From a virus, in the IMG/VR virus record IMGVR_UViG_3300032307_000462, positions 1-45,568 of that record: DNA of 45,568 nt; one strand, 5' to 3'. The notes under the pieces were generated by a model. That model was not told where the DNA came from, searched no databases, and was given only the letters and a program-made list of their open reading frames with translations. Each line of letters starts with the position of its first letter. Within the stretch, counting starts at the first letter, position 1. The translations under genes and the position numbers were made by a program. Of this stretch, positions 1 through 45,568 are shown piece by piece.

Positions 1-1071
1 CTCCTAACCCGTCTGCCTTCCCGACCAAGCTCGATAGCACCCTCCCGTTCGGCCGCCTTACCGGCGAGCAGATGGCTCAATTCGGCCTGTCCGACGCCAT
101 GCTCGATCAGTTCGTCGAACACTCCACGATCGGCCACGTCATGTCCGGCGTCGAGTTCGTCAAGAGCGCCGACGACGCAGCCCACGTCGTGGCCGGTATG
201 CGTAAGCGAACCCAGGAACAGATCATCCTCCTTATCACCGACAAGAACGGTCGCCCGATCCAGATCGCCGGCCACCAGATCGGCGGGCCTACCTCGACCG
301 GCTTCAACCCTGGTATTCTGATCGGCACCGCGGCCAGCACTCCTGGCGCAGCTAAGGTCTGGTTCATCCATAACCACCCGTCCGGCAAGTCCAGCTTGTC
401 GCCGGCTGACATTAGCTCTGGTGGAAACATCGAGCGACTGCTCAAGGCTGCCAACCTGGACTACATGGGAACCATGGCTGTCGCCGGCACCCGGTATGCG
501 CAGATGACCCCCAGCGGCAGGATCGAGAGCAACATGGCGATCAAAGCTGCCCCCCGTAAGTTCAAGGTCCCGGTCACGGAGCGCATGTTCTCGTTCCGCG
601 TCAGCCATGACAAGGTATCCCATGGCGATCCGTCGATCGCCATGACCGAAGCCGAACGTATCTTTGGCAAGGATCAGCCTGGCCTCATCCTCCTGGACAA
701 TAGCAACCGCATGGTTGCCACGATCCCCCTGGCTGCCGACGTGCTCCAGGCCATGAAGGCTAAGATCCCCGGAACAGATCAGACCGGCTTCAACCGTTTC
801 GTGTCCGGCATCGACCGGTCTAACCCCGTCAACCTCATGATCTACACGGCTAGCCTGGACCAGGACGTCGCCCGTAAGGTCATTCAGAACATGAGTGGCG
901 TCGCCCAGGCCACCAAGCTCAACGTCCTGGACGCGTTCGGCGCCGGCAGCGTGAGCCGTCAGTCTGACATTCGCCCCTACGGCTCCGACTTCAATGAGTC
1001 TGGATCTGAATACACCCCGGACGGCGGCCAGGCCAGCGAGCCTCAGACCCTCCGCGACGTCGTAGACCAAG
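1..1071 (+). repeat. Terminal homologous copy A of the JAB-repeat segment
   Basis: Bases 1-1071 align in frame with 44495-45568, with one codon of length difference and scattered substitutions, many of them synonymous. The first 52 bases match 44495-44546 exactly and the last 27 match the window's right end exactly. The window therefore starts and ends in the same gene segment. The copies are either two population variants of one locus placed at the two contig ends, or a real tandem duplication. Confidence 0.9.
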
Positions 1072-4000
1072 CGGCTAAAAAAAAAAATGAATTAGAGGTC
1101 GGTGAGGGCGAGCCGGACGCGGATAGCATGGCTGAAGCCATCAAGGCTGAGCCTATCCCGTCGGCTGCCGACATGGCCAAGCTCACCGGCAGACTAGTCC
1201 CGAACCACGACGACGGGCTCCTGGCCTCACAGGGCTTTATCACCAAGCGCGCCAGCCAGGACATGGCCAGGATCATGGAGCGCATCAACAGGCGCTTCCC
1301 GGACGGCTACCCGATCAATGGCTGGGATGATAATGGCAACTATAACCGGGATAAGAAGAAGATCGCCAACCTCCGGCTGCGCTACGAGAGCGACGCGGAC
1401 CCGATCGGGAATTACGAGGCCCAGGACTATGTCTTTATCGACGCCGTTTTTGAGGACGGAACGACGCACATGATCGCCAGCCTGGATCTGATGCGCGGTT
1501 ACGCCGGCACCCCGGAGGTTACCAAGGTCGGCATGAGCCACGTTAACACGGATCTGCAAAAGCTTGGCCTGGGCAGCATCCTGTATGTCGAAGGCGGCGA
1601 GCGCTTGCGACGCATGGGGCAGCGCTATATCACCGGATCAGTCATTAACCCGGCTGCGGTAGCTACGCGCGTCAAAGCCTTCCCGGCCGGCAGCACCGAG
1701 CTCCTGGCTGTCCCCGGATCGTCCAGCATGAGCCAGAAAGAAATGGCCGACGCTGCGCTAAAGGTCATCAAGGGCGGCCAGGCTGCCTACACCCAGACCA
1801 CCCTGGACCCGGACGTCGCCCTGGAGCCCAGCCAGCCATACAACCAGGCCGGTAGCTATGACATTGTTTTCTATGACGCAGCCATCAAGGGGTTTAACTC
1901 CGAGCGAAACGGCAACCCGGACAAGGACCGGTCCGGGCGAGCCATCGTCGGCAAGGATGGCGTAACCTTCACCGGATATAAGCACCTTAAGGACGCAAGC
2001 CTCACCCTGGATGAATGGAACGATCTCATGGACGAGCTCAAGTCCGACGGCGAAGCTCGCATCAGCATGCCGGACGGGGACATTGTGATCACATCCGTAA
2101 GCAAGCGATCGGACCGCGTCCGGGAAGATGGCGCCGAAGCCGACCAGGACGACCAGCTCACCGAGCCGGCCATGCCTTACGACGACGGCGAGAACACCCG
2201 CATCCCTGGTAGCGAGCGCGACGAGCGCCTCAAGAGACTTGAGGAAAAGGCCCGCGAGGTTGAGCAGCGCGGTTACATGCACGTCGGCCACGGCTGGTAT
2301 TCCGGATCTAAGGACGAGAAGCCGGCAGCCTGGAAGAAGAAGGCCAAGCTGTGGACCCTGTCGAGCGACGGCCGGATCGTTTTCAGCAAGACCGTAGACA
2401 AGCTTGAGGTAGCTTACATTAACAGCAAAAAGCGCGAGCTTGCTGATGTTGAGTCCAAGGCGCGAGCCGCGGAACCGAGCCCCGAACGCAACAACTACGA
2501 ACGCCGGGCGTATCAGCTTACTAAGAAGATAGACGAGCTTGAGGGTGAGATGAAAAGCAACAGCTCCCCCATTACGCACATGAGGCAGACGTCCGGTTTT
2601 TCCGAAACCGAGTATCCCGGCAGAAACCCGCAAGGCCGCGTCGAGATCACCGACGACGGCGTCCTGGTCAGCATCATCAGTTTCCGTGGCAAGATGGAGT
2701 CCGTGGCCGATGAACGGATGGTCATGCAGGATCTGCGCGAGGCGGTCGCGAAGGATCTTGGCGTATCGCCGGACAAGGTCCGTGTCATTGACATGGACGG
2801 CGGCACGGTCGAGACGGACACCCCGGAGGACGGCAGCGCCAGGGAGCCGGCAGCCGCGTATGACGACGGCGAGAACCAGGCTATTCCTGGCGGTGGCCGC
2901 CAGGCCTGGCTGAAGAAACAGGCTGAGCTGCGCTCCAAGAACGAGCTGCCCGGCGCTAAGCGGATCCAATGGTGGACCGACGTCGGCCATAAGCACGGCA
3001 AGAAGAACCGCGAGAAGGTCTGGCTCTGGGCTTACGATAAGCAGGGCAAGCTCCAGGTGATCAACGCCGAGGAGCTTAGGTCCAAGCTGCAGGATGAGTA
3101 TGACATGATCGGCGCCAATGTTACTCACCTTGATTGGGAGGAGTCTTTCGCCCCAGGCCTCCTGGCCGGCGCCGCGCATGGCCGGATCGACGCGACCGAA
3201 GATGTGGTTCGCGTCTCCCTGGCCGGCCGGATCAACGACCCGACGTTCCGGGAACAGGTCAAGCAGGAGCTGGCCGAATACATCGGCGTCGAGGTCGATC
3301 GCGTCAAGGGCTACGACTTTACCGGCGACGGCATGCCGGAGCTGTTCAACCGAACCCAAGCCGGTAGCGACACGGAGATCAAGCAGCTAGCCCAGGATCT
3401 TAAGGGCATGGACGTCGAACAAGCCAAGGCCTACTTCAAGAAAAACCCGGATAAGGTGATACTCTTGTCGCAGCCCGGTCTGCCTCCCCACCTGGAGAAG
3501 ATCATCAAGGCCATGCGCGAGATCGGCTATAACGACGCCAAGGCATACCTGGAAGCTCACCCGCTTGGCAAGCTACTGCTCGCTAACGGTCGCATTGTGT
3601 TAGTCCGCGACGCGTCCGAGATCCCCGGTCTAAGCCCGCTTGAGGCTGCCGCTGGAGGGTTCAATGGCTTGGTGTTTCCAACTAATCGCGAAGCCACCTA
3701 TTTCGTCGGCGACGGGATCTCCCAGGCTGAGCTCGACGCGCTTATCAAGCATGAGGTCGGCGTCCACATGGGCATCGGCAAGGACACCGACCTGGTTAAT
3801 GACCTGTATGCTGAGCTTTACAGGCTGATCGAAAACGGTGCCAGCGACGACATAGACCGGATGATGGCCGGAGATGCCGTGATGGATGCGTTCAGCGTAG
3901 TGGCCGGGCAATACGGACGCGGGATCTTAAAGAAGATAAATGAAGGGGGTCTATCCCCCAAGGAGCGCTACACCGATGCCCGCATAACGAGCATACTTAA

Positions 4001-7000
4001 GGAGAAAGGCTTACCCCAGGATGAGATCGATAACTTCCTGCGCATGTTCCACGAGGAAACCCTTGGCTATCTGATGAACGTCATGGCCAGAAGGGACGCC
4101 GCAGCTAACGCCCCAAAGGAGGGCTTGTTTGCGATCATCATCCGGTGGATCAAGGCCACGATCATTCGCATGGCCTACGCCGGCAGCGAAGGCGGGGAGC
4201 GCGCCCGCGCCGGGAAGGCTATGCGTGGCATCGGCTACGCCAGCTTGATGGCCGACAGCCTGGGAATGAAGAAACTGTCCCAGCTCCTGGAGATCCGGCC
4301 GGGCGACGTCCGGGCGATCGCCCAGGGCTATGTCCGGGCATACGCTTCCGGCAAGGAGGTCGGCATGCCGGATACCAGGAAGGATACGGTTGAGGGTGAC
4401 ACCCAGGAGGCAGCCAAGGACGCCCAAGAAGCGCGCGTCCAGGGTCGCGCCAGCGATCCGGTTACCGACGCTGCCACGTTTAGTAACACCCTGCTGTTCT
4501 CCTGGCGCAAGCCAGGTCAGCCAGCGCCTACCAACGATAAGCTGTCCGGAACCAAGGAGGCTGCTGCCAGGTTTGAGGATGCGCCCAAGGGCCCCGTCGC
4601 CGGCGCCAATGAAAAAGAAGAAAACCTAAGCTACCCGCCGTCGTCTGCCCAGGAGGAGGTTGGTCATGCCAAGTGGGTAGAGCGCAAGCATCCGGAACAA
4701 AGCGAGTTTTCTGTCATTACCCACAAGAGTGGAGTTATCTCGCTTAGCCAGGCGCTTAATCCTACCGGCCCTACTAGAGACTCATCTCTGCTGGTTGCCG
4801 ATGAAAACGGAAACCCGATCGAGTTTCCGCGCGTGTCGTCTATCGCTGCGATCAGCGGCCAGCTGGGAGATCTAGCTGCTCAGCTCGACATCCCGGTGCA
4901 CATCCCGCAAGGCCGACAGGGGACCGGCAAGGATGGTAAGTTTAATGAGATCAAGGGTAAGGATGAGGACGTTACGGACGACGGCCAGATGCTGTCTGGC
5001 TTTGGTCTTGAACACGCGTCCTGGAAGCATGGATGGGAAATGGATGCTCTCGCTGGTAAGGGTGGCTGGGAGGTCGGTAAGCATGTTGAGGCTATTCAGA
5101 AAATAATGGAAGATGCTAGCGACATTGGCGTCATGTATAACGCAGACGGGTCCGTAGGTAAGGTCATGGTTTTCTCACAAAAAACCCAGATGCGCGTAGT
5201 CTTGCAGCGCGTAGGCGGTGACAGCCCGTTCTTCTATGTGGTGACGGCCATGAAGCTTGGTAACGCCGTCAGAAAAGGTAAGCCTGTAAACGCTGAAAAA
5301 CTTAACGTCCCGATCGACAGAGAGACGTTCATGAGAGGCTTGGTTAGCTTCAGCCCGGAGGGAGCTCCGGCTCCGCGAGCGTTTTACTCTGAAGCTAAAA
5401 ACGAAAACCAGACTAACAGCGAAAACCAGGCTAACGAACCTGGCGCCGACTACGGCCAGACCGAGCAGACCGGCGAGCAGCAAGCTGCTGCTGAAGCCGA
5501 GACGCTGGAGAAGCTGCGCGAGGTCCAAGGCAACGGACCCGCTGGCCCCAAGCTGTTCAACGCGATCCCGCCCACCCCGCCGCCTCCTGCGCCGACCACG
5601 CCCACCAGCCCGGCGCCGGCTCCGCTTAACCCGCCGGCGACGAACGACGACATGGCGCGCCGGGTAGGCGACGTCCTGCGCGGCCGATACTTTGACGGCA
5701 TCAGCACCAAGGCGCACCAGAACGCTGAGCGCACCGGCAGCGCAGCTGTCCGGGCTATTGCCGACATTATCCACACCCGTCCTGGGACGGAGAGCCCGTC
5801 CTCTGAGCGCGATCTGCCCAAGGCGATCATGAGCGCGCGCATCAAGTATCAGAACAAGTTTAACCAGATCATGCGCCCGCTGCGCGATCAGCTCAGTCGC
5901 ATGACCAGCGAGCAGCGCGAGCAGTTCTACCGCGAGCTCGTCGATCAGATCACCGGCCGGACCAACATCCAGCCTGGCGTCGCCGGCCACGCGGCAACGC
6001 AGCTGATCGATCTGCTCAAGGAGTTGCACGACTACCGGACCGCAGCCGGCGAGAACCTGGGCCAGGTCCAGCAATACTTCCCGGCGGTCTACAACTCCGA
6101 GCTGATCACGGCCAACCGGACCGCCTTCATCGCGGACGCGACCAGGGCCTACGAGATCGAGCTGTCCCAGGACCCGACCCTTACCCCCCAGGAGATCCAG
6201 GCCAAGGCCGCCGCAGCCGCGGCTGCCCTGTATCGGACCCATACCAGGGGCATGGGCGACGCCGAATGGGCGAGCATCTTCACCAGCGGCCGGGATAACG
6301 CCACGGAGAACAGCTCCAAGGAGCGCGTGTTCGGCCGCCAGGCGCAGGGCATCATGGCCAAGTGGCAGACGCCGGACCCGTTCTATGTGATCAGCCGTTA
6401 CATCGGCAGCTCCGTCAAGCGAGCTGAGCTCGTCCGGCGCTTCGGCCCGGAGGGTGAGAAGTGGGAAGCCATGGCCAACGCCATGGAAACCGACGGCGTC
6501 CCGATCGAGACGATCAACGAGATGGGGCAGCTGGTGAAGCTGGCCGCCGGCCTGGGCGTCACGCCCCTGGATAACTCCGAGCGCATGTTCATGGATACGG
6601 TCAACCTATACACCGCCGCCGCGGCCATGGGTAAGAGCGCCATGAACAACCTGTTTGAGCCTTCGGCCATGGGCATCCGCGGATCTACCGTCGGCAACCC
6701 GTTCCGGACGGTCAGCGCCTACGCCGAAACCTGGGCGCGGTTCGTCCGTAACCTGGTGCAGATGCTGCCGGTCCTGGGCGAGCACGTCGGCCCGACGTTC
6801 TGGCAGGAATACGGCGAGCACATCGGATCTATCCATAACTCCCTGGACGACGCCTGGATGAGCATGCACGCCATGGAGCACGGCATGGAGGAGTCCAACC
6901 CGGCCATGCGCTGGATCACGAACCGGGTCTACCAGGCCAACCTCATGGAGTCTACGGAGAACGCCAAGCTCCAGGCCTCCCATGCCCTGGGTCACGCCTA

Positions 7001-7949
7001 CATCCTGGACCACGCCAGCATGCTGGACGGCAGCCACTACATCTCGCGGCTGCTTAAGTTCGACACGCGCAGCACGGCCGAGGAAGCGCTGCTTGAGCTT
7101 GGCATCCCCAAGTCCAAGCAAGACGCCTTCGCAGCCTGGTGCGCCACGCTTAAGCAGACCAAGGACCGGGGCGCTCGCATGGCCATGCTTACGGACGGAT
7201 CTGAAATGGCCCGCCTATACGAGGAAGCCCAGATCCGGTTCAGCCATCAGTCAGCTGTCCGTGCTAACCGGGCTCACAAGCCGGTGTTCCAGGATGCTGT
7301 CCTGGGTCGCCTGGCCTTGCAGCTCATGAGCTTCAGCTACTCCTACTTCTCCGAGGTAACCGATCGCATGTATCGCATGGCAAGGCGCGCGATCACGACG
7401 AACAACATGCCGGCGATCCAGCGCATCAACATGATGCTCCCCCTCATGCTGTCTCCTCTGACCGTCGTGGCCATGGGCGCCTTGTTTGAAAGCAAGGACT
7501 ACCTGTTCCCGACGGAGTCGTCCGAGAAGCGCAAGAAAGACCATTGGATCTACAAGCTGTTCAACGCCTCCTCGTTCGCCGGCATGTTCGGGCCCAAGCT
7601 CGAAATGGCTACCAAGTATATCGCGCGCGATCAGCCGCCTGGCGGCATCGCCGGTCAGACCGCGGTCGGCGTCGGCCGTGTTGGCAAGAAGGCTATCGAG
7701 CTCGCCATGGACGATACCAAGACGCCGGCCCAGAAGGAGGCTGCCTTGAAACAGGCTGCCGCCAGGGCTGCCGTCGCTCCGATCAAGGGCGCTGCCGTGA
7801 TCGCAGGATCCGCGCTGCACCCGGCCGCCGGCGCCCTGGCTGTTGCAGCCACTAACGATACCGGCTGGTCTAATGCGCTGCAGGACGTCGAAACCCCCAA
7901 AAAGGGGACGGATCCCAAGCCGGAAGGATTGCCAAAATACAGGAGGTAA
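3..7949 (+). CDS. Giant polyvalent virion protein, 3' part (RadC/JAB, GNAT-like, zincin-like, helical C-terminus)
   Basis: This frame is open from the left edge, with no stop before the first ATG at 72, so the gene continues upstream. Its 5' part is at 41560-45568. Domains in order, by position: a RadC/JAB-like domain with HNHPSG at 369-386 followed by SxxD; its partner segment (610-960); an 11-A run (1077-1087); a GNAT-like segment whose QKLGLGSILY (1557-1586) resembles an acetyl-CoA loop; two copies of an unknown module beginning EPAxxYDDGEN (2163 and 2847); a zincin-like HEVGVH at 3750-3767; a segment starting FGLEHASWKHG at 5001 that recalls phage BECR-type nucleases; a Pro-rich linker (5560-5640); and a long helical region to 7500 with a hydrophobic stretch near 7430-7495. 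This architecture fits the large polyvalent proteins that phages eject with their DNA, which is family knowledge. Ejection and protection of incoming DNA are inferred from the internal virion protein genes just upstream. JAB is the surest domain; GNAT, zincin and BECR are motif-level calls. Confidence 0.85.
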   Translation, partial: PNPSAFPTKLDSTLPFGRLTGEQMAQFGLSDAMLDQFVEHSTIGHVMSGVEFVKSADDAAHVVAGMRKRTQEQIILLITDKNGRPIQIAGHQIGGPTSTGFNPGILIGTAASTPGAAKVWFIHNHPSGKSSLSPADISSGGNIERLLKAANLDYMGTMAVAGTRYAQMTPSGRIESNMAIKAAPRKFKVPVTERMFSFRVSHDKVSHGDPSIAMTEAERIFGKDQPGLILLDNSNRMVATIPLAADVLQAMKAKIPGTDQTGFNRFVSGIDRSNPVNLMIYTASLDQDVARKVIQNMSGVAQATKLNVLDAFGAGSVSRQSDIRPYGSDFNESGSEYTPDGGQASEPQTLRDVVDQAAKKKNELEVGEGEPDADSMAEAIKAEPIPSAADMAKLTGRLVPNHDDGLLASQGFITKRASQDMARIMERINRRFPDGYPINGWDDNGNYNRDKKKIANLRLRYESDADPIGNYEAQDYVFIDAVFEDGTTHMIASLDLMRGYAGTPEVTKVGMSHVNTDLQKLGLGSILYVEGGERLRRMGQRYITGSVINPAAVATRVKAFPAGSTELLAVPGSSSMSQKEMADAALKVIKGGQAAYTQTTLDPDVALEPSQPYNQAGSYDIVFYDAAIKGFNSERNGNPDKDRSGRAIVGKDGVTFTGYKHLKDASLTLDEWNDLMDELKSDGEARISMPDGDIVITSVSKRSDRVREDGAEADQDDQLTEPAMPYDDGENTRIPGSERDERLKRLEEKAREVEQRGYMHVGHGWYSGSKDEKPAAWKKKAKLWTLSSDGRIVFSKTVDKLEVAYINSKKRELADVESKARAAEPSPERNNYERRAYQLTKKIDELEGEMKSNSSPITHMRQTSGFSETEYPGRNPQGRVEITDDGVLVSIISFRGKMESVADERMVMQDLREAVAKDLGVSPDKVRVIDMDGGTVETDTPEDGSAREPAAAYDDGENQAIPGGGRQAWLKKQAELRSKNELPGAKRIQWWTDVGHKHGKKNREKVWLWAYDKQGKLQVINAEELRSKLQDEYDMIGANVTHLDWEESFAPGLLAGAAHGRIDATEDVVRVSLAGRINDPTFREQVKQELAEYIGVEVDRVKGYDFTGDGMPELFNRTQAGSDTEIKQLAQDLKGMDVEQAKAYFKKNPDKVILLSQPGLPPHLEKIIKAMREIGYNDAKAYLEAHPLGKLLLANGRIVLVRDASEIPGLSPLEAAAGGFNGLVFPTNREATYFVGDGISQAELDALIKHEVGVHMGIGKDTDLVNDLYAELYRLIENGASDDIDRMMAGDAVMDAFSVVAGQYGRGILKKINEGGLSPKERYTDARITSILKEKGLPQDEIDNFLRMFHEETLGYLMNVMARRDAAANAPKEGLFAIIIRWIKATIIRMAYAGSEGGERARAGKAMRGIGYASLMADSLGMKKLSQLLEIRPGDVRAIAQGYVRAYASGKEVGMPDTRKDTVEGDTQEAAKDAQEARVQGRASDPVTDAATFSNTLLFSWRKPGQPAPTNDKLSGTKEAAARFEDAPKGPVAGANEKEENLSYPPSSAQEEVGHAKWVERKHPEQSEFSVITHKSGVISLSQALNPTGPTRDSSLLVADENGNPIEFPRVSSIAAISGQLGDLAAQLDIPVHIPQGRQGTGKDGKFNEIKGKDEDVTDDGQMLSGFGLEHASWKHGWEMDALAGKGGWEVGKHVEAIQKIMEDASDIGVMYNADGSVGKVMVFSQKTQMRVVLQRVGGDSPFFYVVTAMKLGNAVRKGKPVNAEKLNVPIDRETFMRGLVSFSPEGAPAPRAFYSEAKNENQTNSENQANEPGADYGQTEQTGEQQAAAEAETLEKLREVQGNGPAGPKLFNAIPPTPPPPAPTTPTSPAPAPLNPPATNDDMARRVGDVLRGRYFDGISTKAHQNAERTGSAAVRAIADIIHTRPGTESPSSERDLPKAIMSARIKYQNKFNQIMRPLRDQLSRMTSEQREQFYRELVDQITGRTNIQPGVAGHAATQLIDLLKELHDYRTAAGENLGQVQQYFPAVYNSELITANRTAFIADATRAYEIELSQDPTLTPQEIQAKAAAAAAALYRTHTRGMGDAEWASIFTSGRDNATENSSKERVFGRQAQGIMAKWQTPDPFYVISRYIGSSVKRAELVRRFGPEGEKWEAMANAMETDGVPIETINEMGQLVKLAAGLGVTPLDNSERMFMDTVNLYTAAAAMGKSAMNNLFEPSAMGIRGSTVGNPFRTVSAYAETWARFVRNLVQMLPVLGEHVGPTFWQEYGEHIGSIHNSLDDAWMSMHAMEHGMEESNPAMRWITNRVYQANLMESTENAKLQASHALGHAYILDHASMLDGSHYISRLLKFDTRSTAEEALLELGIPKSKQDAFAAWCATLKQTKDRGARMAMLTDGSEMARLYEEAQIRFSHQSAVRANRAHKPVFQDAVLGRLALQLMSFSYSYFSEVTDRMYRMARRAITTNNMPAIQRINMMLPLMLSPLTVVAMGALFESKDYLFPTESSEKRKKDHWIYKLFNASSFAGMFGPKLEMATKYIARDQPPGGIAGQTAVGVGRVGKKAIELAMDDTKTPAQKEAALKQAAARAAVAPIKGAAVIAGSALHPAAGALAVAATNDTGWSNALQDVETPKKGTDPKPEGLPKYRR
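1077..1087 (+). other. A11 homopolymer in the giant gene, possible slippage site
   Basis: A run of 11 A residues in a GC-rich coding region encodes Lys-Lys-Lys-Asn just after the RDVVDQ end of the JAB repeat. One extra A gives an immediate TGA; one missing A gives ATG AAT TAG. Polymerase slippage is known on A runs of this length, and either slip would end the protein right after the JAB repeats. Whether slippage happens here is inference. Confidence 0.5.
2163..3350 (+). repeat. Diverged tandem duplication inside the giant gene
   Basis: Two consecutive modules start with EPAMPYDDGEN (2163) and EPAAAYDDGEN (2847), both followed by an IPG and a basic helix. Both end in a similar segment, GRVEITDDGVLVSI in the first and GRIDATEDVVRVSL in the second, then a helix and a VDxVKG/VDRVKV-type strand. 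The similarity is clear in protein and weak in DNA, so the duplication is old. I do not recognise the module. Confidence 0.6.
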
Positions 7950-23494: not shown

Positions 23495-23815
23495 GGTCGG
23501 CAGCGTGACGCTGCGCCGATCGACGTGCAAGGACAAAGCCGGATCGGCATACCCCCCTCCTGCCGGTGCGCTCGCTCTATAGGCCTCCCGCGCGCGCGTC
23601 TATAGGTGCACCCACCTACCCCTCCTCCCTGCCTATGGCTCACCCTCCCTCCTCCCCTCACCCATGCCTCCTCCCTCCCCGATCCCCGGCCTACGCCTCC
23701 GCTTTTCTACTCAAAATTCCATCTCCCCCCGCGCGGAAAAATTTGCGGATCGCAGAAAGATGGTCCTACAAAGTGTTCCCTTGCCGGAGTTTATGCGCGC
23801 GCACAAGATCCGCGC
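23495..23815. promoter_or_regulatory. Divergent promoter region with TCTATAGG repeats and C-rich tract
   Basis: This 321-base region lies between divergent genes (lysozyme-like leftward, tail fibre rightward) and holds no confident gene. TCTATAGG occurs at 23576 and 23599, 23 bases apart, about two helical turns, with a CG-rich spacer. From about 23609 to 23695 the plus strand is an almost pure C/T tract with several CCC/CTCC runs, so the minus strand is G-rich and could form quadruplex-like structure. A less GC-rich stretch from about 23700 to 23760 may hold the fibre promoter, but no clear -35/-10 pair is visible. Confidence 0.45.
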
Positions 23816-25963
23816 ATGTCCCAGCCGCCCGATCCCTATCAGCGCCAATACAATTTTACGGATCACTCTATCCAGCTGCCGAACGCGCCGCAGCCGGGCA
23901 ACAAGCTCGACCTTGAGCTCAACGAAGTCCGCGAGAGCTTGAACCATACGATCTCGCGCCTCAACGAGATCCAGCGCGACGACGGAAAGCTGCGCGACTC
24001 TGCTGTTCCGGACGATCATCTGATCCCCGGTCCGGTCGGGCCAATGGGCCCCCAGGGGATCCAAGGAATTCAAGGCGTGCCTGGCGTGCCGGGCATTAAC
24101 GGAATTGACGGCCAGCAGGGCATCCAAGGGATCCAAGGGATCCAAGGCCCCGTCGGCCCCCAAGGCCCCCAAGGCGATAAATACGCATGCACGTCAACGA
24201 CCAGCCTAGCGCTGTCGAACGGCACCAAGACATTCACGACGCAGACCGGCCTGGCGTGGACGAGCCAGCAGGATGTGACGATCGTCTACGACGCTGCGCA
24301 TCACATGCACGGAACGGTGACCACTTACGACGCGCAGACCGGCGCGATGGTCGTCGATGTTTCGCAGCACACCGGCAACGGTGGCCCTTACAGCACCTGG
24401 ACGATCAACATCGAAGGCGCGATCGGCGCGCAAGGACCCGTCGGGCCAGCCGGCCAGCAAGGCGAGCCGGGGATCCAGGGCCCCCAGGGTATCCAAGGCC
24501 CGGCAGGACCTGGTTTGGTTGACGGACTCACGATCTCAGAAGCTGCTGCGACGTATAAAACGATCGCTTCAGCTGACGCTGCGCTCGCCGGCAAGGCTGC
24601 GCTCGCGCACACGCACCAGATCGCTGACGTTTCCGGCCTGGCGAGCTCGCTTTCCGGTAAAGCCAGCAGCGTTCACTCCCATGCGATGGCCGATGTGTCC
24701 GGTTTGACCGGAACGATCAGCAGCATGTCGTCAGACATTAACACCAGGCTCAAGAAAGTGACCGATGCGTCGTTCTCGATGCTCTACAACGCCGGTTATC
24801 TGTCGATCCCGGCCGGTTCTGATCTGTTCGGGCAGCGAGCTCAATACACGGTTCCGCTGCAAGCGCTAGGAACGCGCTCCTGGATGGTCCAGCGCCCGGA
24901 GTTCCTGGGCAAATGGATCTTCAAGAACGTGATGAACGCGGAAAACAAGCGCCAGACCAAGGGCCCGCGCTCGTTCATCGAGTTCACGCACACCGATTTC
25001 GGCATTATCGCGCACGGCGATCTGGAATACGAGGACGCCGGCATCGTTATCGACAGCCAATGCGATTGGATCGAGCTTACGGACGCAGCCGGGACGCCCT
25101 GGTCCGGTTATTACAGCCCCAGGCAGACGGTTGCGGACGGATCTGGTGGATACAGCACGTTGACCGGATCTCCTGGTGGCGGCACCTGTTGGCTTCCTAA
25201 CGGATACGTCCTTTCCATGGGCGAGACTGTTCCTCTTAGCTTTGAATGGAACGACACCGAAGGCCACACCGGCAATTTCCAATACGGTTACACGGAAATC
25301 GGCATGGTCGTCGCGAATGGCCAGGGCGGCACCATTACTTACAGCCAGAACACGGTTATCACGGCGACTGCCGGCCAGGTGTTCCACTCTGATCCTGGTC
25401 AATGCTCCGGTTCGCTGGATCTCGCGTTCGACGGCGTCAGCTACTACACGACCAGCGACACGCGCCAGAGCGCGCCGCCGGCAGATCAGTATATCCGCAG
25501 CGACTCCGGTATTCTGGAAGTCTACCTCTGCGGATCTAACTACCAGGTCGGCAGCTGGTCCGGTGATTTCTACACCGACGGCACATGCACCGGCGAGTCG
25601 TTCTCCGGAACGACCGAATACGTCCCTTACGGCACCTATCTGACGAATTGCGACGGATACAACCACTACTCCAACGGCTCCGGCGGCTACTATTCCGAGA
25701 GCGACGGCAGCGGCGGCGGCGGTTGCAGCGGCGACACCGGCAACACGTCGTCCGGCGATCTCTACGTCTACATCAGCGAGATCGACCAGAGCGTGATCGG
25801 CGGCAGCTACTACGCGACAGAATACTACAACTACGACTGCACAACCTCCTGGTCCTCGTCTGACAGCTGGTATTCCTACGGAACCGAGCTGTATAACGAC
25901 GGCACGGGCAACTATTATTACGCCGACGGTTCCGGCGGCTATTACTACCAATACAACTACTGA
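23816..25963 (+). CDS. Tail fibre with collagen-like repeats and Tyr/Gly-rich C-terminus (715 aa)
   Basis: ATG 23816 starts the protein; the frame extends to 23606 but that part is Pro-rich noise from the C/T tract. The N-terminus ([19 protein letters not shown] followed by [27 protein letters not shown]) is the common podovirus fibre attachment head that docks to the tail. Gly-X-Y collagen-like segments follow at residues 72-122 and about 204-234, which should form triple helices. The C-terminal 170 residues are rich in Tyr, Gly, Ser and Asp with repeated DGSGGYY-type turns and several Cys; this is the likely receptor-binding tip. Trimer formation and receptor binding are inferred. Confidence 0.85.
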
Positions 25964-26191: not shown

Positions 26192-27762
26192 TGAGCGACC
26201 AGGACCAGGACGACATTCAGCGCCAGATCAAGGCAGCTGAGCGTCTGCTGCGCCTCAAGAAGGCCAGGTCCGGTCTGATCGAGTTCACCAAGTTTACGCT
26301 GCCGGATCCGGAGGCGCCGGAGGATCACACCCAATCGCGCTACCAGGACGCGCTGCATCACCGGGTGATCGCGGCCGCCCTGGAGGAGAGCGAAGCCGGG
26401 CGCATGCCCAGGCTGATCATCACGATGCCTCCGCGCCACGGTAAGTCAGAGCTCGCGTCCAGGCGCTTCCCGGCCTGGTTCCTGGGCAAGGACCCCTACC
26501 GGCAGCTCATCTTTGCCACCTATAACGACGACTTTGCCCAGGACTTTGGACGGTCTGTGCGCGAAACCATGGGCTCAGCTGTGTTCCAACAGGTGTTCCC
26601 TGGCTGCAAACTGCGCACCGGCAGCAAGGCATCGGACAAGTTCCAGACGGACGAGGGCGGCCTGGCGGTCTTTGTCGGCCGTGGCGGGGGCCTTACCGGC
26701 CGCGGCGCCGATCTGCTGATCATCGACGACCCGATCAAGGACCGCGAGGAGGCCAACTCCAAGAACCTCCGGGATAAGCTCTGGTCCTGGTTCACGGAAG
26801 TGGCCATGACCCGTCTTATGCCGGCCGGCCGGGTGGTCATTATCATGACGCGCTGGCATGAGGACGATCTGATCGGCCGGCTGACCGATCCGTCCAACCC
26901 CTGCTACAACGCCGAAGAAGCCAAGAATTGGAAGATCCTGGCGCTGCCGGCCATCGCCGGCGAGGACGACCCCATGAAGCGCAAGCCTGGCGAGGCCCTA
27001 TGGCCGGAGCGCTTCCCGATCCCGGCCCTGGAGCAGATCAAGCGCCTTAACCCCACCGGCTTCTCAGCTCTATACCAGGGAGCTCCGACGCCGGAGGACG
27101 GCGACTACTTTAAGCGCGATTGGCTGCAGACCTACGACTCTCCTAGCGCGATCCCGGCGAACCTCCGGAAGTATGGCGCGTCCGACCACGCCGTCTCGAT
27201 CGCCCAGGACGCGGACAAGACGTGCATGGGCTGCGTCGGCATCGACGAGGACGACAACATCTGGGTCCTGCCGGATCTATTCTGGCGCCGGGCGCAGACC
27301 GACGTCGTCTGTGACGGCATGCTAGATCAGTTCCGGCGCAACGCCCCGCTGCTCTGGTGGGCTGAGAAGGGCCACATCTCCAAGGCGATCGGCCCGTTCC
27401 TGCGCAAGCGCATGCAAGAGGAACGGATCTATTGCGCGATCGACGAGGTGACGCCGTCCAAGGACAAGCAGACGCGCGCCCAGGCGATCCGCGGCCGTAT
27501 GGCCATGGGCAAGGTGTTCTTCCCCAAGTTCGCGAGCTGGTGGCCGGACGCGCAGCTGGAGCTGCTGAAGTTCCCGGCTGCACGGCACGACGACTTTGTC
27601 GATTGGCTTGCGCACATCGGCATGGGCTTGAACCTCCAGGTCGGCGCGAGCTCGCCGTCCAAGGCAGACAAGGGACCGGCAACCGGCACCCTGGCCTGGG
27701 TCAAGCACTCCTCCAAGATGAGGGAGTATGCCGAAAACAGGTTGCGCAATTTCTGGTCATAA
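26191..27762 (+). CDS. terL: Terminase large subunit (523 aa)
   Basis: ATPase motor: MPPRHGKSE with Lys85 (Walker A) and LLIIDDP with Asp179-Asp180 (Walker B), followed by a coupling motif IIMTRWHEDDL. Nuclease part: the acidic strand around MGCVGIDEDDNIWVL and a final Asp in DFVDWLAHI give the RNase H-like site of the Terminase_6C type. It cuts concatemeric DNA and drives it into the prohead through the portal. I use ATG 26191; a TTG three bases earlier is in frame. The portal gene follows 13 bases later, the usual order. Confidence 0.95.
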   Translation: MSDQDQDDIQRQIKAAERLLRLKKARSGLIEFTKFTLPDPEAPEDHTQSRYQDALHHRVIAAALEESEAGRMPRLIITMPPRHGKSELASRRFPAWFLGKDPYRQLIFATYNDDFAQDFGRSVRETMGSAVFQQVFPGCKLRTGSKASDKFQTDEGGLAVFVGRGGGLTGRGADLLIIDDPIKDREEANSKNLRDKLWSWFTEVAMTRLMPAGRVVIIMTRWHEDDLIGRLTDPSNPCYNAEEAKNWKILALPAIAGEDDPMKRKPGEALWPERFPIPALEQIKRLNPTGFSALYQGAPTPEDGDYFKRDWLQTYDSPSAIPANLRKYGASDHAVSIAQDADKTCMGCVGIDEDDNIWVLPDLFWRRAQTDVVCDGMLDQFRRNAPLLWWAEKGHISKAIGPFLRKRMQEERIYCAIDEVTPSKDKQTRAQAIRGRMAMGKVFFPKFASWWPDAQLELLKFPAARHDDFVDWLAHIGMGLNLQVGASSPSKADKGPATGTLAWVKHSSKMREYAENRLRNFWS

Positions 27763-27775
27763 CGACGATTTTTTT

Positions 27776-29896
27776 ATGGAAGCCAACGAACCTCAAGAAA
27801 ACTACGACGTGGACTCCGGCGTCGAAGGCGAACAGATGCCGAAGGGCATCAAGCGCGATCCGGATCCTAACGCCAAGGACTCCACCAAGGCCCTGGTCAA
27901 AGAGTGGCAGGGCAAGATCATGCGCGCCAAGAAGCATTGGGAGCGCCCCCTCCAGGCCATGAAGGAGGACATGGACTTCTACATGGGCAAACAATGGCCC
28001 GGTCACCGCGGTCCCAACGACGACCGGTATGTCGCCAACCTGGTGCAGCGCCACGTCCAGACGCGCGTCGCCGCGCTCTACGCGAAGAACCCGAAGGCCG
28101 TAGCCAAGCGCCGCAGCACCCTGGACTTCACGATCTGGGAGGGCGACGCCAGCCAACTTGAGTCAGCCAATACGGCCAACCAGCAGTCGTTCATGGCGAC
28201 CGGCATGCCGGATCCTCACGCGATGGCGCTCATGGCCGACGTCGAACAAGGTTTCGAGAAGCGCCGGCAGCTCGACAAGATCGGCAAGACGATGGAGATC
28301 ATCTTCCATCACATCATCGAGACTCAGAACATCAAGGGGCAGATGAAGCAGCTCGTCCGGCGCACATGCGTGACCGGCGTCGGTTTCGTCAAGATCGGCT
28401 ACCAGCGCGTCATGTCCATGCGCCCGGAGGACGTCGAGAAGCTCACGGACATTACCGAGCAGATCAAGACCCTGGACCGCCTGGAGCAGGATCTCAAGGA
28501 TCAGAAGTTCGACGAGAACAGCGCCAAGCGCGCGCAGCTTGAGCTGCTGAAGAAGGAGCTCATGGAAAAAGAGGACATGATCATCGACGAGGGCATCGTC
28601 TTTGATTTCCCTCAGTCCCAGACGATCATCGTCGATACGCGCTGCCGGCAGCTCAAGGGCTTCATCGGCGCCGAGTGGGTCGCCCAGGAGTTCATCCTTA
28701 CCTCTGACGAGGTTAAGGAGATCTACGGCGTAGACCTGGGCACGTCGTTCACGCGCCAGGAGAACAAATACGTCAACTCAGACGACAAGAGCGAGTGTGA
28801 CGTCGCCCGGATCTGGGAGATCTACAGCAAGCGCGACGGACTCAAATATGTCATCGCCGACGGCTACCCGGACTTCCTGGTCGAACCTGGCTGCCCGGAG
28901 ATCAAGCTCAAGCGCTTCTGGCCGTTCTTCCTCCTGTCCTTTAACGAGGTCGAGTCCGACCGGGACATTTACCCGCCGTCCGACGTCCGGCTCATGAAGC
29001 CGATCCAGCTGGAATACAACCTGGCGCGCCAGCGTCTGCGCGAGCACCGGAACGCCAACCGGCCGCTATACGTCACGCCGGTCGGCATGCTTTCCGAGGG
29101 CGACGTCAAGAAGCTCATGGATCGCCAGCCTAACGAGGTGATCCAGCTCATGTCCCTGCAGCCCGGCCAGGCGGTCAACCAGCTCCTGCAGCCGGTCCAG
29201 CCGATCCCGGTGGATCCGTCCTTGTATGACACCTCCATGTTCATGGAGGATCTGTTCCGCGTCGTCGGCAGCCAGGAGGCCAACCTGGGCGGCGGCACCG
29301 GCAACACGGCGACCGAGGTTTCCGTAGCTGAGTCCAGCCGCATGAGCTCCATGGGCTCGCATGTGGATGACCTGGATGAGTTCCTAACCGAGCTAGCCCG
29401 CGCGGCCGGCGCCGTAATGCTCAAGCTCATGGACCCCTCGTCGGCCATGAAGATCGCCGGCCCTGGCGCCGCCTGGCCCACCCTTTCGTCCCAGGAGATC
29501 GCGGATGAGCTCCTCCTGGAGATCGAAGCCGGCAGCTCCGGTCGCCCGAACAAGGCTGCCGACATAGCTGCGTTTGAACGCCTGGCTCCGCTGCTGATCC
29601 AGATCCCTGGCATCGATCCGACCTGGCTGGCTAAGGAGGCCATCAAGCGCATGGACGACGGCCTGGACATGTCTGAAGCCGTCCGGGCTGCGCTGCCGTC
29701 CATCGTCCAGATGAACGCCCAGAAGCAGATGGCTGAGGTCGAAGCTTCCCAGGATCCGAACATGCAGGGCGCGGCCGGTGGCCAGCCGGCAGCTCCGGCC
29801 CTGGCGCCTGGCGCCCCTGGCGGCGGTAATGCCAACGCCCAGGTGCCGAACATCCCGCAGCCCAAGATGTATGGGATCCCCCAAAATGGGGTCTAA
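27776..29896 (+). CDS. Portal protein (706 aa)
   Basis: The N-terminal region (KHWERPLQAMKEDMDFYMGKQWPGHRGPNDDRYVANLVQRHVQTRVAALYAKNP) matches portal proteins of podoviruses. A coiled-coil region near residues 240-275 (LEQDLKDQKFDENSAKRAQLELLKKELMEKEDM) and a stem-crown-like C-terminus follow, ending in a Pro/Gly/Ala-rich tail. It forms the dodecameric ring for DNA entry. The ATG at 27776 follows a run of seven T residues; a longer frame to 27728 is just overlap with the terminase end. Confidence 0.9.
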   Translation: MEANEPQENYDVDSGVEGEQMPKGIKRDPDPNAKDSTKALVKEWQGKIMRAKKHWERPLQAMKEDMDFYMGKQWPGHRGPNDDRYVANLVQRHVQTRVAALYAKNPKAVAKRRSTLDFTIWEGDASQLESANTANQQSFMATGMPDPHAMALMADVEQGFEKRRQLDKIGKTMEIIFHHIIETQNIKGQMKQLVRRTCVTGVGFVKIGYQRVMSMRPEDVEKLTDITEQIKTLDRLEQDLKDQKFDENSAKRAQLELLKKELMEKEDMIIDEGIVFDFPQSQTIIVDTRCRQLKGFIGAEWVAQEFILTSDEVKEIYGVDLGTSFTRQENKYVNSDDKSECDVARIWEIYSKRDGLKYVIADGYPDFLVEPGCPEIKLKRFWPFFLLSFNEVESDRDIYPPSDVRLMKPIQLEYNLARQRLREHRNANRPLYVTPVGMLSEGDVKKLMDRQPNEVIQLMSLQPGQAVNQLLQPVQPIPVDPSLYDTSMFMEDLFRVVGSQEANLGGGTGNTATEVSVAESSRMSSMGSHVDDLDEFLTELARAAGAVMLKLMDPSSAMKIAGPGAAWPTLSSQEIADELLLEIEAGSSGRPNKAADIAAFERLAPLLIQIPGIDPTWLAKEAIKRMDDGLDMSEAVRAALPSIVQMNAQKQMAEVEASQDPNMQGAAGGQPAAPALAPGAPGGGNANAQVPNIPQPKMYGIPQNGV

Positions 29897-41559: not shown

Positions 41560-44500
41560 ATGGCTCTAAACATCAATCCGAATTCGGGAAAAGGATCGAC
41601 GAACCAGCGCGCTCTGCCTCCTGTTCCTCCCGTAGCGCCGACTCCGGAGTTATCTACTCCAGGTGGCGAGCCTGTTGCCGGCCAGATCGGAGCTCTCGCG
41701 CAGATCGTTGCTGCAGCGCAGCGAGGCACAGCAGCCTCTAATCAATTCGCGATCCCCACGTTTGGTTCGCCTGGTGTTTCTCAAGCTGCGCTGCCGAGCC
41801 CGATCGCGCCGCAGCAGCCTGGCATCCCTGCCGGTGTTCCTTCTTCTCTCGCCGGACTGTTCGGCGACGCCGGCGCTCAAGCTGCGCAGCCAACCGGTGG
41901 TCTTTCCGATTACGGACTTGCACCGGCTCCGGAGCTCCAGGGCGCCATGGGGCCTGGAGCTGAAACCGGTGCTATGGCCATGGAGCCCGAAGCTCCTATG
42001 CCCGGCATGCCTGTCCAGCCGGCTGGCCAGCAGGGCTCTGCTCCGATCACCGGAGCCACTACCATTTTCGATCTCGTCTCCCGCGGTCTTGGCGTAAACC
42101 AGGCGCCCCAGGCGCCCCAGGCGCCCCAGGCTCCGGCCATGGCTCAGCCTGGCATGCCGGCGCCGCGCGTCCCGCAGCTGCCGCCGATGCCTCAGCTGCC
42201 GACGCCCACCGGTCCGCAGATCTTGCCTCAGTATGCCGGCGCCGACTCTCGCGCTAACTTTGCACCTGGCGGCACCCCTCAGCTCATGCCGGAGGCCCAG
42301 GCCCGCGTTGACCTGGCCAATGCCCCTACGTTTGACTCCTGGGCAAACCAGCTCCAGCAGATGGGGATCGCCAGCAACCCGGCTGCCGGCACCTTTGGCA
42401 CCGGCGCTCGCCAGCCCCAGCTGCCGCCCATGCCCCAGCTCCCGACCCCGTCGGGTATCCCTTCCGGTCTTGCAGCACCCCAGGCGGCGCCCCAGGCTTC
42501 CCCTTATGTCAACCCGCAAGCCCCCCAGGGTGCTGTTCAAGCACCCGCCGGACCTCAAGCTCCGCGCGGCGGTCAAGGCGCAGCAGCTCCGGCTCAGCAA
42601 GTCCAAGCCCAAGCCCAGCCTTCTGTCGCTCCTGCGCCCGCTGCTGGACCGGCTCCTGCGCCGGCGGTAGACCCCGTCGTCGCCGATCTGCAGCGCCAGA
42701 TCGCAGAGCTGCGCGCGCGTATCCCGGCCGCCCCGGCCCCGGCCGCCCCCGCGCCTCAGCAGCCCCCGGCAGCCCAGGCTGATCCCGGCCGCCCGTATGA
42801 TCCGTCTCGCGTCGAACCCCAGGAGGTTCCGGAGTCGGCCCCCGTCGAGCAGCCCCAGGAGGTTCCCGAAGAAGCCCCGGAGCTTGAGCCCGCGTTCACC
42901 GGCTCTCCTCTTACGGAAGCCAAGCCGGCCGATCCGATCGTCTCTAACGGTGGTATTTCCATCGGCGGCAAGAGCTTTAAGAACGCCAAGGCGATCCCGG
43001 CCAGCATGCTGCAGAAGATCGGCGTCAGCCAGGCCATCCTTTCTCAGTTCGTCGAACACGCCCAGGTCGGCGTCCTTAAGTGGTTCAAGCCGACGATCGA
43101 CAACGAAGCCGACGCGGCTGCGCTGTCCTATGAGTTCCTGCGTAACCAGGCACAGGAGAGCATGCTGGTCATTCTTGCCGACAAGAACGGCAAGCCAATC
43201 AGCGTCCTGCGGCACACCCTAGGAGGCATGGGTCAAACCTCATTCCACGCCAACATCATGGCTGGAGTGGCCGCCGGAACCCCTGGCTGCCGTAAGGTAT
43301 ATGTCGTCCATAACCACCCGTCCGGGACCATGAAGTTTTCGGAGGCCGATATGCTGGCTGCGGTCAACATCCAGAAGCTACTTGAAGGAGTCGGCGTCGA
43401 GTTTTCCGGCAGCCTTGTCGTTGGCGACGCCCAGAACGATCCTGGCACTCGCGGCGAAGGCGCTTACGGTCCTCGTTATATCTTCCACCCTGGCAATAAG
43501 GATACCGTAAAATTCCTCGAAACCTACGCCAAGGACGAGGCATTGTCTAAGCCGATCACCATGGCCGAGGACACCCCTGGCGGCGATCTGACCGCCGGCT
43601 ACCCGGTCGCGCTCACCGAACGCGTGTTTAAGATCCGCGGTAACGCCCTGGCGCCCGCTATTGCCAACGGGACTGATGCGGTCCGTTCTATTGTTCCGCT
43701 TCTGGCCCGTAAGCCTGGCATCGCTTTCCTTGATAAGGGAAACCGGGTTATGGCCGTTCTTCCGCTTAGCCTTCAAGAGATGGCCGCACTTGCTACGGTT
43801 ACCAACAAGCGCGGAACCATGGGCATCGCTCAGAGCAACACGCAGCGACTTCCGAGGACCACGAGCTCGACGATCGACGTCGAGTCCACCGCCCAGGACA
43901 ACCCTCCTCTTGCCAGGATCCTAACCGTCCTGGAACGTGCTAATGCTGACGGTATCATTATCAGCGTAGGCGATGCCAGCAACGACAGCCAGGAAGCAGT
44001 CAATGCGGTGATCAACGTCAAGACGATGGCTGGAAGATCTAAGATCGGCGTCTTGGACACGATTAATAATGAGCGCAACTTTGGTCCTTATTTCGGTCCC
44101 AAAGCTGACACGCTTGGCGGCACCAACGCTACTCCTAAGCTTCCGACCGGTGAGCGCCTGGGCTTCCGCGAGGGCGACGAGGAGTATGATCCGGCCCCGA
44201 TCGAGAACGAAGATCTGGCCCAGGACTACCCGGAAGTCATGGCTAACCGCAAGGCGACGCAGCGCGCCGACGGCGGCCAGGATGGCGGCGCCGGCATCGA
44301 AGGCATCGTCCGCAACGGCCTGGAAGAAGGTAACGTCAGCGAGACTAACCCGGAAGATCCGAACGCCGGCGCAGAGTTCGCCCGCCAGGAACGCGAAGCT
44401 GGCGCCAGGGTCAACCAGGACAGCGGCCTGGAGAACGCCACGCCGGCCGAGCCTATCATTAAGAAAACCCGCAAGCCTCGCGCTAAGCCGGCTGCTCCTA

Positions 44501-45568
44501 ACCCGTCTGCCTTCCCGACCAAGCTCGATAGCACCCTCCCGTTCGGTCGCCTTACCGGTGATCAGATGGCTCAGTTCGGTCTGTCCGACGCCATGCTCGA
44601 TCAGTTCGTCGAGCACTCCACGACCGGCCACGTCATGTCCGGCGTCGAGTTCGTCAAGAGCGCCGAGGACGCAGCCCACGTCGTGGCTGGTCTGCGCAAG
44701 CGCCCCCAGGAACAGGTGATCCTGCTGATCACGGACAAGAACGGCCGTCCAATCCAGATCGCCGAGCACATGCTCTCCCAGCCAGCGTCTTGCGGCTTCA
44801 ACCCTGGTATCCTTATCGGCACCGCGGCCAGCACCCCTGGCGCAGCCAAGATCTGGTTCATCCATAACCACCCGTCCGGTAAGCCTACCCTGTCGCCGGC
44901 TGACATTAGCGCCGGGGGCAACATCCAGAGGCTGACCGAAGCTGCCAACCTTAAGTATGAAGGGACGATGGCTATCGCCGGAACCCGGTTCGCCCAGATG
45001 ACCCCGTCCGGACGGATCGAAGGCAACATGGCGATCAAGGCTGCGCCCCGTAAGTTCAAGGTTCCGATCACCGAACGCATGTTTGCGTTCCGCGTCAGCC
45101 AGGACGCCAAGCAGATCAGCGACCCGGCCATCGCCATGGCCGAAGCCGAGCGTATCTTTGGCCAAACTCAGCCTGGCCTTATGCTCCTGGATAACAGCAA
45201 CCGCCTGGTTGCCACAATCCCCCTGGCTGCCGACGTGCTCCAGGCCATGAAGGCCAAGATCCCAGGCACGGACCAGACCGGCTTCAACCGGTATGTGGCC
45301 GGCATCGACCGATCTAACCCGGTCAACGCCATGATCTATACGGCCGACGTAGATGCGGGCGTTGCCCGCAAGATCATCCAGAACATCAGCGGTATGGCTG
45401 GTGCCACCAAGATCAACGTCCTGGACGCGTTCGGCGTCGGCGGTATCAGCCGTCAATCCGACATTCGCACCTACGGCGCCGACTTCAATGAGTCGGCTGC
45501 CGAATACGATCCGGAAGGCGGCCAGCCCCAGGGCGAACCCAAGACCCTCCGCGACGTCGTAGACCAAG
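41560..45568 (+). CDS. Giant polyvalent virion protein, 5' part (two RadC/JAB-like repeats)
   Basis: ATG 41560 follows TAAGACACCAAC and opens a frame that runs to the window edge without a stop. Residues 1-460 are a Pro/Ala/Gln-rich low-complexity arm. Then come two RadC/JAB-like repeats: HNHPSG with first His at residue 584 and SEAD after it, and HNHPSG at residue 1102 with SPAD. The His-x-His and Ser-x-x-Asp pattern is that of JAMM/RadC folds. Each JAB unit is preceded by a GLSDAMLDQFVEH-like helix and followed by a partner segment, so the repeat unit is about 340 residues. The gene continues at window positions 1-7949. The protein is probably carried in the virion; JAB activity, if any, would be a zinc-dependent hydrolase of unknown substrate. 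Confidence 0.88.
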   Translation, partial: MALNINPNSGKGSTNQRALPPVPPVAPTPELSTPGGEPVAGQIGALAQIVAAAQRGTAASNQFAIPTFGSPGVSQAALPSPIAPQQPGIPAGVPSSLAGLFGDAGAQAAQPTGGLSDYGLAPAPELQGAMGPGAETGAMAMEPEAPMPGMPVQPAGQQGSAPITGATTIFDLVSRGLGVNQAPQAPQAPQAPAMAQPGMPAPRVPQLPPMPQLPTPTGPQILPQYAGADSRANFAPGGTPQLMPEAQARVDLANAPTFDSWANQLQQMGIASNPAAGTFGTGARQPQLPPMPQLPTPSGIPSGLAAPQAAPQASPYVNPQAPQGAVQAPAGPQAPRGGQGAAAPAQQVQAQAQPSVAPAPAAGPAPAPAVDPVVADLQRQIAELRARIPAAPAPAAPAPQQPPAAQADPGRPYDPSRVEPQEVPESAPVEQPQEVPEEAPELEPAFTGSPLTEAKPADPIVSNGGISIGGKSFKNAKAIPASMLQKIGVSQAILSQFVEHAQVGVLKWFKPTIDNEADAAALSYEFLRNQAQESMLVILADKNGKPISVLRHTLGGMGQTSFHANIMAGVAAGTPGCRKVYVVHNHPSGTMKFSEADMLAAVNIQKLLEGVGVEFSGSLVVGDAQNDPGTRGEGAYGPRYIFHPGNKDTVKFLETYAKDEALSKPITMAEDTPGGDLTAGYPVALTERVFKIRGNALAPAIANGTDAVRSIVPLLARKPGIAFLDKGNRVMAVLPLSLQEMAALATVTNKRGTMGIAQSNTQRLPRTTSSTIDVESTAQDNPPLARILTVLERANADGIIISVGDASNDSQEAVNAVINVKTMAGRSKIGVLDTINNERNFGPYFGPKADTLGGTNATPKLPTGERLGFREGDEEYDPAPIENEDLAQDYPEVMANRKATQRADGGQDGGAGIEGIVRNGLEEGNVSETNPEDPNAGAEFARQEREAGARVNQDSGLENATPAEPIIKKTRKPRAKPAAPNPSAFPTKLDSTLPFGRLTGDQMAQFGLSDAMLDQFVEHSTTGHVMSGVEFVKSAEDAAHVVAGLRKRPQEQVILLITDKNGRPIQIAEHMLSQPASCGFNPGILIGTAASTPGAAKIWFIHNHPSGKPTLSPADISAGGNIQRLTEAANLKYEGTMAIAGTRFAQMTPSGRIEGNMAIKAAPRKFKVPITERMFAFRVSQDAKQISDPAIAMAEAERIFGQTQPGLMLLDNSNRLVATIPLAADVLQAMKAKIPGTDQTGFNRYVAGIDRSNPVNAMIYTADVDAGVARKIIQNISGMAGATKINVLDAFGVGGISRQSDIRTYGADFNESAAEYDPEGGQPQGEPKTLRDVVDQ
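42100..42132 (+). repeat. Short tandem repeat coding for Gln-Ala-Pro
   Basis: The 9-base unit CAGGCGCCC is repeated three times from 42100 and followed by a diverged fourth copy, encoding NQAPQAPQAPQAPQAP in the low-complexity arm of the giant protein. Such repeats change length easily by slippage. Confidence 0.8.
44495..45568 (+). repeat. Terminal homologous copy B of the JAB-repeat segment
   Basis: This segment is the partner of copy A at 1-1071. It contains the second JAB repeat of the 5' part and ends exactly at the sequence that precedes the A11 run in copy A. Joining 45568 to 1072 keeps the reading frame, and so does joining 45568 to 1. Confidence 0.9.

Follow-up and report, generated by a model that had tools for sequence, protein, structure and literature searches.

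Gene layout and genomic context

The window is the whole viral record of 45,568 nt (IMGVR_UViG_3300032307_000462). An open reading frame starting at an ATG at position 41560 on the + strand runs off the end of the window at 45567 after 1,336 codons; on the same strand, positions 3–7949 hold 2,648 codons of a frame that is open at its 5' side and has its stop at 7949. The two frames are in phase once the record ends are joined, giving a joined frame of ~3,985 codons, and related record L005 carries the same gene uninterrupted (L005:7049–18127; 3,693 codons), from which we conclude that the giant frame is genuine and that the record divides it between its two termini (41560–45568, continuing in phase at base 1, and 1–7949). 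The initial annotation had described a single frame of more than 3,600 codons at 41560–45568; such a frame does exist, although this interval holds only its N-terminal third, the rest lying at 1–7949. With a single copy of the second JAB module (JAB2, see below), as in the uninterrupted L005 gene, the window protein would be ~3,627 amino acids long and its gene would take up about one quarter of a ~44.5 kb genome, in keeping with the share of almost a quarter first proposed.

Upstream on the same strand are matches to terminase, portal, capsid, adaptor and internal virion proteins; the giant gene closes the head/tail block and comes after the genes for internal virion proteins, as had been annotated. 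A tail-fibre-like gene with collagen and phage-tail repeats (23606–25960) lies ahead of the terminase gene. The portal protein (27728–29893) is 42% identical to that of Microcystis phage Mae-Yong1326-1 and 37% to that of Rhizobium phage RHph_N65; no other isolated relative was found for this protein. No relative was found in GTDB genome contigs and consequently no host could be assigned.

RadC-type JAB domains

The protein begins with the low-complexity arm of the initial annotation, which is Pro/Ala-rich in translation (41560–42924). This is followed by the JAB1 module (42925–43959; RadC core 43099–43431; HNHPSGTMKFSEAD), which matches PF04002 with 51.7 bits against a cut-off of 22.1, and by the JAB2 module (44494–45568; RadC core 44656–44955; HNHPSGKPTLSPAD; 42 bits), which is cut by the record end. 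A second copy of the JAB2 module, here JAB3, occupies positions 1–1071 (RadC core 165–500). The RadC-like JAB domains of the window pass the Pfam cut-off, each with an intact JAMM motif (HxHx7SxxD).

Whether the protein has two or three JAB repeats had been left open. The two extremities of the record, 1–1071 (1,071 bases) and 44495–45568 (1,074 bases), are homologous throughout; the alignment takes in both the first and the last base of the record and is bordered by stretches of 52 and 28 identical bases. Exactly two PF04002 matches were present in all nine close relatives and one in each of two more distant relatives; three were found in the window only. Further, JAB2 is 89.2% identical to L005 and JAB3 is 94.5% identical to L010 over 401 bases, by comparison with 85.4% between JAB2 and JAB3 themselves, so that either copy resembles a single-copy relative more than it does its counterpart in the window. 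Three repeats were rejected on these three grounds: the record-end alignment, the two-JAB relatives and the differing nearest relatives of the copies. The third RadC domain probably arose in assembly and is best accounted for if the contig ends carry one module in the alleles of two strains: where a circular genome exists in two strain versions of the JAB2 stretch, an assembly that begins in one version and closes in the other would have the observed layout. A phage that really carries three JAB modules, with JAB2 and JAB3 in tandem, would be compatible with the frame remaining open across the joined ends; given that both ends are cut at exactly the repeat boundaries, that no relative has three JAB domains and that the nearest relative differs between copies, we consider this highly improbable. 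Strain alleles at contig ends can be mistaken for domain repeats.

Domains of the remaining protein

The segment at 1140–1922 has no Pfam match of its own in the window; it aligns with a segment of L007 which, as a slice, scores 23.4 bits for GNAT against a Pfam cut-off of 20.7, so that the GNAT-like assignment in the initial annotation has Pfam support through this relative only. The duplicated modules noted at the outset were also found: a module opened by YDDGEN..IPG occurs twice at 2145–3392 (boxes at ~2178 and ~2859), with 1–4 copies in five relatives and none found in L030. Next is a peptidase-like segment (3390–4442) with HEVGVH at 3750–3767; the motif HE[ILV]G[VQ]H is kept in eight sequences, the window and seven relatives. 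The motif annotated as zincin-like is thus present and conserved, although it has the form HEXXXH, not the usual zincin HEXXH, and no confident fold or profile match to a zincin was obtained for the segment. HEXXXH has been described as a polyvalent-protein variant by Iyer et al. (2017; PMC5512222).

The segment at 4443–5582 differs strongly between close relatives; it and its counterparts in L005, L007, L008, L011 and L014 are largely replaced among otherwise close relatives, in the manner of a swapped effector cassette. A possible BECR nuclease segment had been proposed; the candidate stretch lies around 5007–5255, and we regard the assignment as weak: no PBECR profile scored over cut-off, and the sole match, below threshold, was that of PBECR1 to the L014 counterpart (E 0.0098). 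The C-terminal part (5583–7949, including the stop) is predicted to be helical, in line with the long helical C-terminus first described, and is 93–96% identical in L005 and L014 and about 50% in L007 and L008. It has seven remote matches among isolated phages, including Pseudomonas phage virion structural proteins and a giant Microcystis phage protein, from which it is suggested that the C-terminus may hold the giant in the virion; for the N-terminal part no match to isolated phages was found.

AlphaFold models, one of the checks proposed with the initial annotation, were of low confidence (mean pLDDT 53 and 39 with 9 and 11 sequences respectively) and support no fold alone. Foldseek of the models against PDB returned nothing at E 0.001, and solved-structure searches with JAB2 and C-terminal profiles gave nothing useful. 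BFVD gave two strong matches, to RadC-like and large-polyvalent proteins of uncultured phages; as their TM-scores were very low these are taken as a lead in sequence, not in fold. Fold assignments beyond JAB are hence based on motifs and on one relative. A second proposed check, against polyvalent-domain profiles, failed to find any LPD domain by curated profile in the window or in L005, L007, L008, L009, L011 and L014, LPD1 being found in the Microcystis phage protein only.

Nevertheless, several unlike domains lie in one chain (two RadC domains over cut-off, GNAT over cut-off in L007 and the conserved HEXXXH) and the gene stands beside late virion genes, which supports membership of the known class of phage polyvalent proteins. 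The class proposed in the initial annotation is retained, with the JAB count reduced from three to two; delivery together with the genome and a function in anti-defence or DNA protection, as first suggested, stay putative.

A conserved A-run between JAB2 and the GNAT-like segment

A feature absent from the initial annotation, and one that probably splits the product into two, is a run of 11 A's at 1077–1087, exactly between JAB2 and the GNAT-like segment, where the gene reads GCT AAA AAA AAA AAT GAA TTA GAG. It is the longest homopolymer in this 61.5% GC genome; about 0.003 runs of 11 A's are expected in the window, no other A-run is longer than 6, and 464 of the 529 lysine codons are AAG. The run is followed by TGAATTAG (1088–1095), with stops in both other frames (TGA at 1088–1090 and TAG at 1093–1095).

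A run of 9 or more A's is present at the same boundary in all nine records that reach the site: A11 in the window, L005, L006, L007 and L011 (5/9), and A10 in L008, L009, L028 and L030 (4/9). No A9 or A12 member was seen among the nine, and no further runs of 9 or more A's occur elsewhere in them, nor any in the L010 record (which ends inside JAB2), the two distant relatives or two isolated phages. The nine members are related and this conservation does not represent nine independent events. The site was not singled out by a codon-conservation scan; pattern scans for further members returned known records only, and a JAB1 profile search added L045, which ends before the site. One uncultured phage (L035:3447–16073) has a frame of 4,209 codons with one RadC domain and both HEXXXH and HEXXH motifs, without an A-run.

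Across members the run sits in three codon phases, indicating that nucleotides rather than amino acids are conserved, and both other frames stop within 15 codons after it. In the eight members tested, A8 and A11 leave the frame open, while A9, A10, A12 and A13 lead to a stop within 15 codons. Conservation of the run in place, together with stops in the other frames, is the pattern sought in sequence for a programmed slippage site. In the A10 members L008, L009 and L030 what is left of the protein is encoded in the -1 frame, so that a long product would need a frame shift; the L028 record ends one base past its run. The downstream part compared between L008 and L030 has a dN of 0.32 and a dS of 0.83, showing purifying selection on this frame in the A10 members.

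Could the run simply be a neutral lysine-rich linker of an ordinary polyvalent protein, with the A10 members having two genes with separate starts? K-K-K is read at the run in all members, and in L008 and L030 an in-frame ATG is found some 80 bases 3' of it, preceded at a distance of about 14 bases by AAGGAGG or AAAGAGG, which makes a separate start conceivable. However, the run stays while flanking residues differ and its codon phase shifts, and AAA is rare in the window; we give this explanation little credence. A phase-variable contingency tract, in which DNA length differs between phages and toggles the long form, would fit the presence of both A10 and A11 and the known role of poly-A tracts in phase variation in bacteria (PMC3711429). 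Against this, the A10 members have a hairpin in common and a downstream frame under selection, and neither A9 nor A12 was seen in any member; such a tract is very unlikely.

Structure beside the run

The hairpin of the A10 members is strong and lies directly 5' of the run (z -2.5 in L008, -4.2 in L028 and -3.9 in L030; L009 is identical to L008 in this region). No such hairpin was present at the run in A11 members (z -1.6 to +0.7). Perfect GC-rich hairpins abut the A10 run at L008:11060–11075, L028:9086–9102 and L030:9122–9138, and their stems are rebuilt in shifted register between lineages. As the pairing registers of L008 and L030 are one base apart, these hairpins were not counted as covariation. 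Slippage is known to be stimulated by a stem-loop in the nascent RNA 5' of the site (PMC5009743).

This bears on whether ribosomal -1 frameshifting, and not polymerase slippage, may yield both products. A-rich heptamers are classic sites of -1 frameshifting (PMC3711429), and such a shift would produce the short form where the run is A11 and the long form where it is A10; on the other hand, ribosomal sites do not require runs as long as 10–11 A's, a hairpin located immediately 5' of the run accords with polymerase slippage (PMC5009743) and no conserved 3' structure was seen. On balance ribosomal frameshifting, which would lead to the same products, is unlikely.

Proposed expression of the giant gene

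We favour the reading, with a probability of roughly 0.7, that the giant gene encodes a phage polyvalent protein of ~3,627 amino acids and carries a programmed A10/A11 slippage site right after JAB2. The predicted order is a flexible arm, two RadC-type JAB metalloenzyme domains, a GNAT-like segment, the repeated module, the HEXXXH peptidase, the fast-changing segment and the helical C-terminus. RNA polymerase (less likely the ribosome) would slip on the A10/A11 run and change the frame so that, depending on the member, translation would either stop within a few codons or enter the long frame; one gene would then yield a JAB-JAB protein of ~1,340 amino acids and the full-length giant. What the sequences show is the run with its place and conservation, the stops in the other frames and the hairpins of the A10 members; slippage, the two proteins and their ratio, location in the virion, injection and any effect of the JAB domains on nucleic acids are inferred.

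The current view is that polyvalent proteins are processed into functional units by a peptidase of their own. A slippage site, if true, would offer another means of separating the domains, one with a controlled ratio. If the C-terminus holds the giant in the virion, as its remote structural-protein matches suggest, the short form would consist of the JAB pair without anchor or peptidase. We see about even odds that in this environmental phage group polymerase slippage, boosted by the hairpin in the A10 lineage, sets the ratio of JAB-JAB to giant virion-linked protein as an alternative to self-peptidase cleavage. The A10 members also show how gene callers may split such a gene in two.

Comparison with known systems

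Phage polyvalent proteins as surveyed by Iyer et al. (2017; PMC5512222) are alike in having many unlike domains per chain, a place beside late virion genes and an HEXXXH-variant metallopeptidase. There, the RadC-type JAB domains of polyvalent proteins are believed to act on nucleic acids or nucleotides. The same survey lists RadC in conjugative-element polyvalent proteins only, in contrast to the two RadC domains of the phage-type protein here, although another passage mentions prophages for RadC; nor do the passages drawn on here describe a slippage site such as the one predicted. Among isolated phages, ORF 38 of Microcystis phage Mae-Yong1326-1 (2,441 amino acids) is likewise a giant protein encoded last in a morphogenesis block and, with the KPP25/R18 virion structural protein, is remotely like the C-terminal part of the window protein (21–28% identity). 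It differs in having LPD1 and HEXXH motifs, and neither a RadC match nor an A-run of 9 or more.

A narrow search of the open-access literature found no conserved slippage site in a phage virion or polyvalent gene. With an A11 cassette, a frameshifting level of 63% has been measured (PMC3711429). In Citrobacter rodentium tssM1, slippage on an A11 run has been shown by experiment to produce two forms of TssM1 (PMC4256274); the run length and the short and long products of one gene are as proposed here, although tssM1 encodes an unrelated bacterial secretion protein and its slippage is experimental where ours is predicted. The experimentally proven site of Thermus thermophilus dnaX, an A9 run in a bacterial DNA polymerase gene, differs in these respects; it resembles the A11 members in that the long form is in the encoded frame and both other frames stop just after the A-run (PMC5009743).
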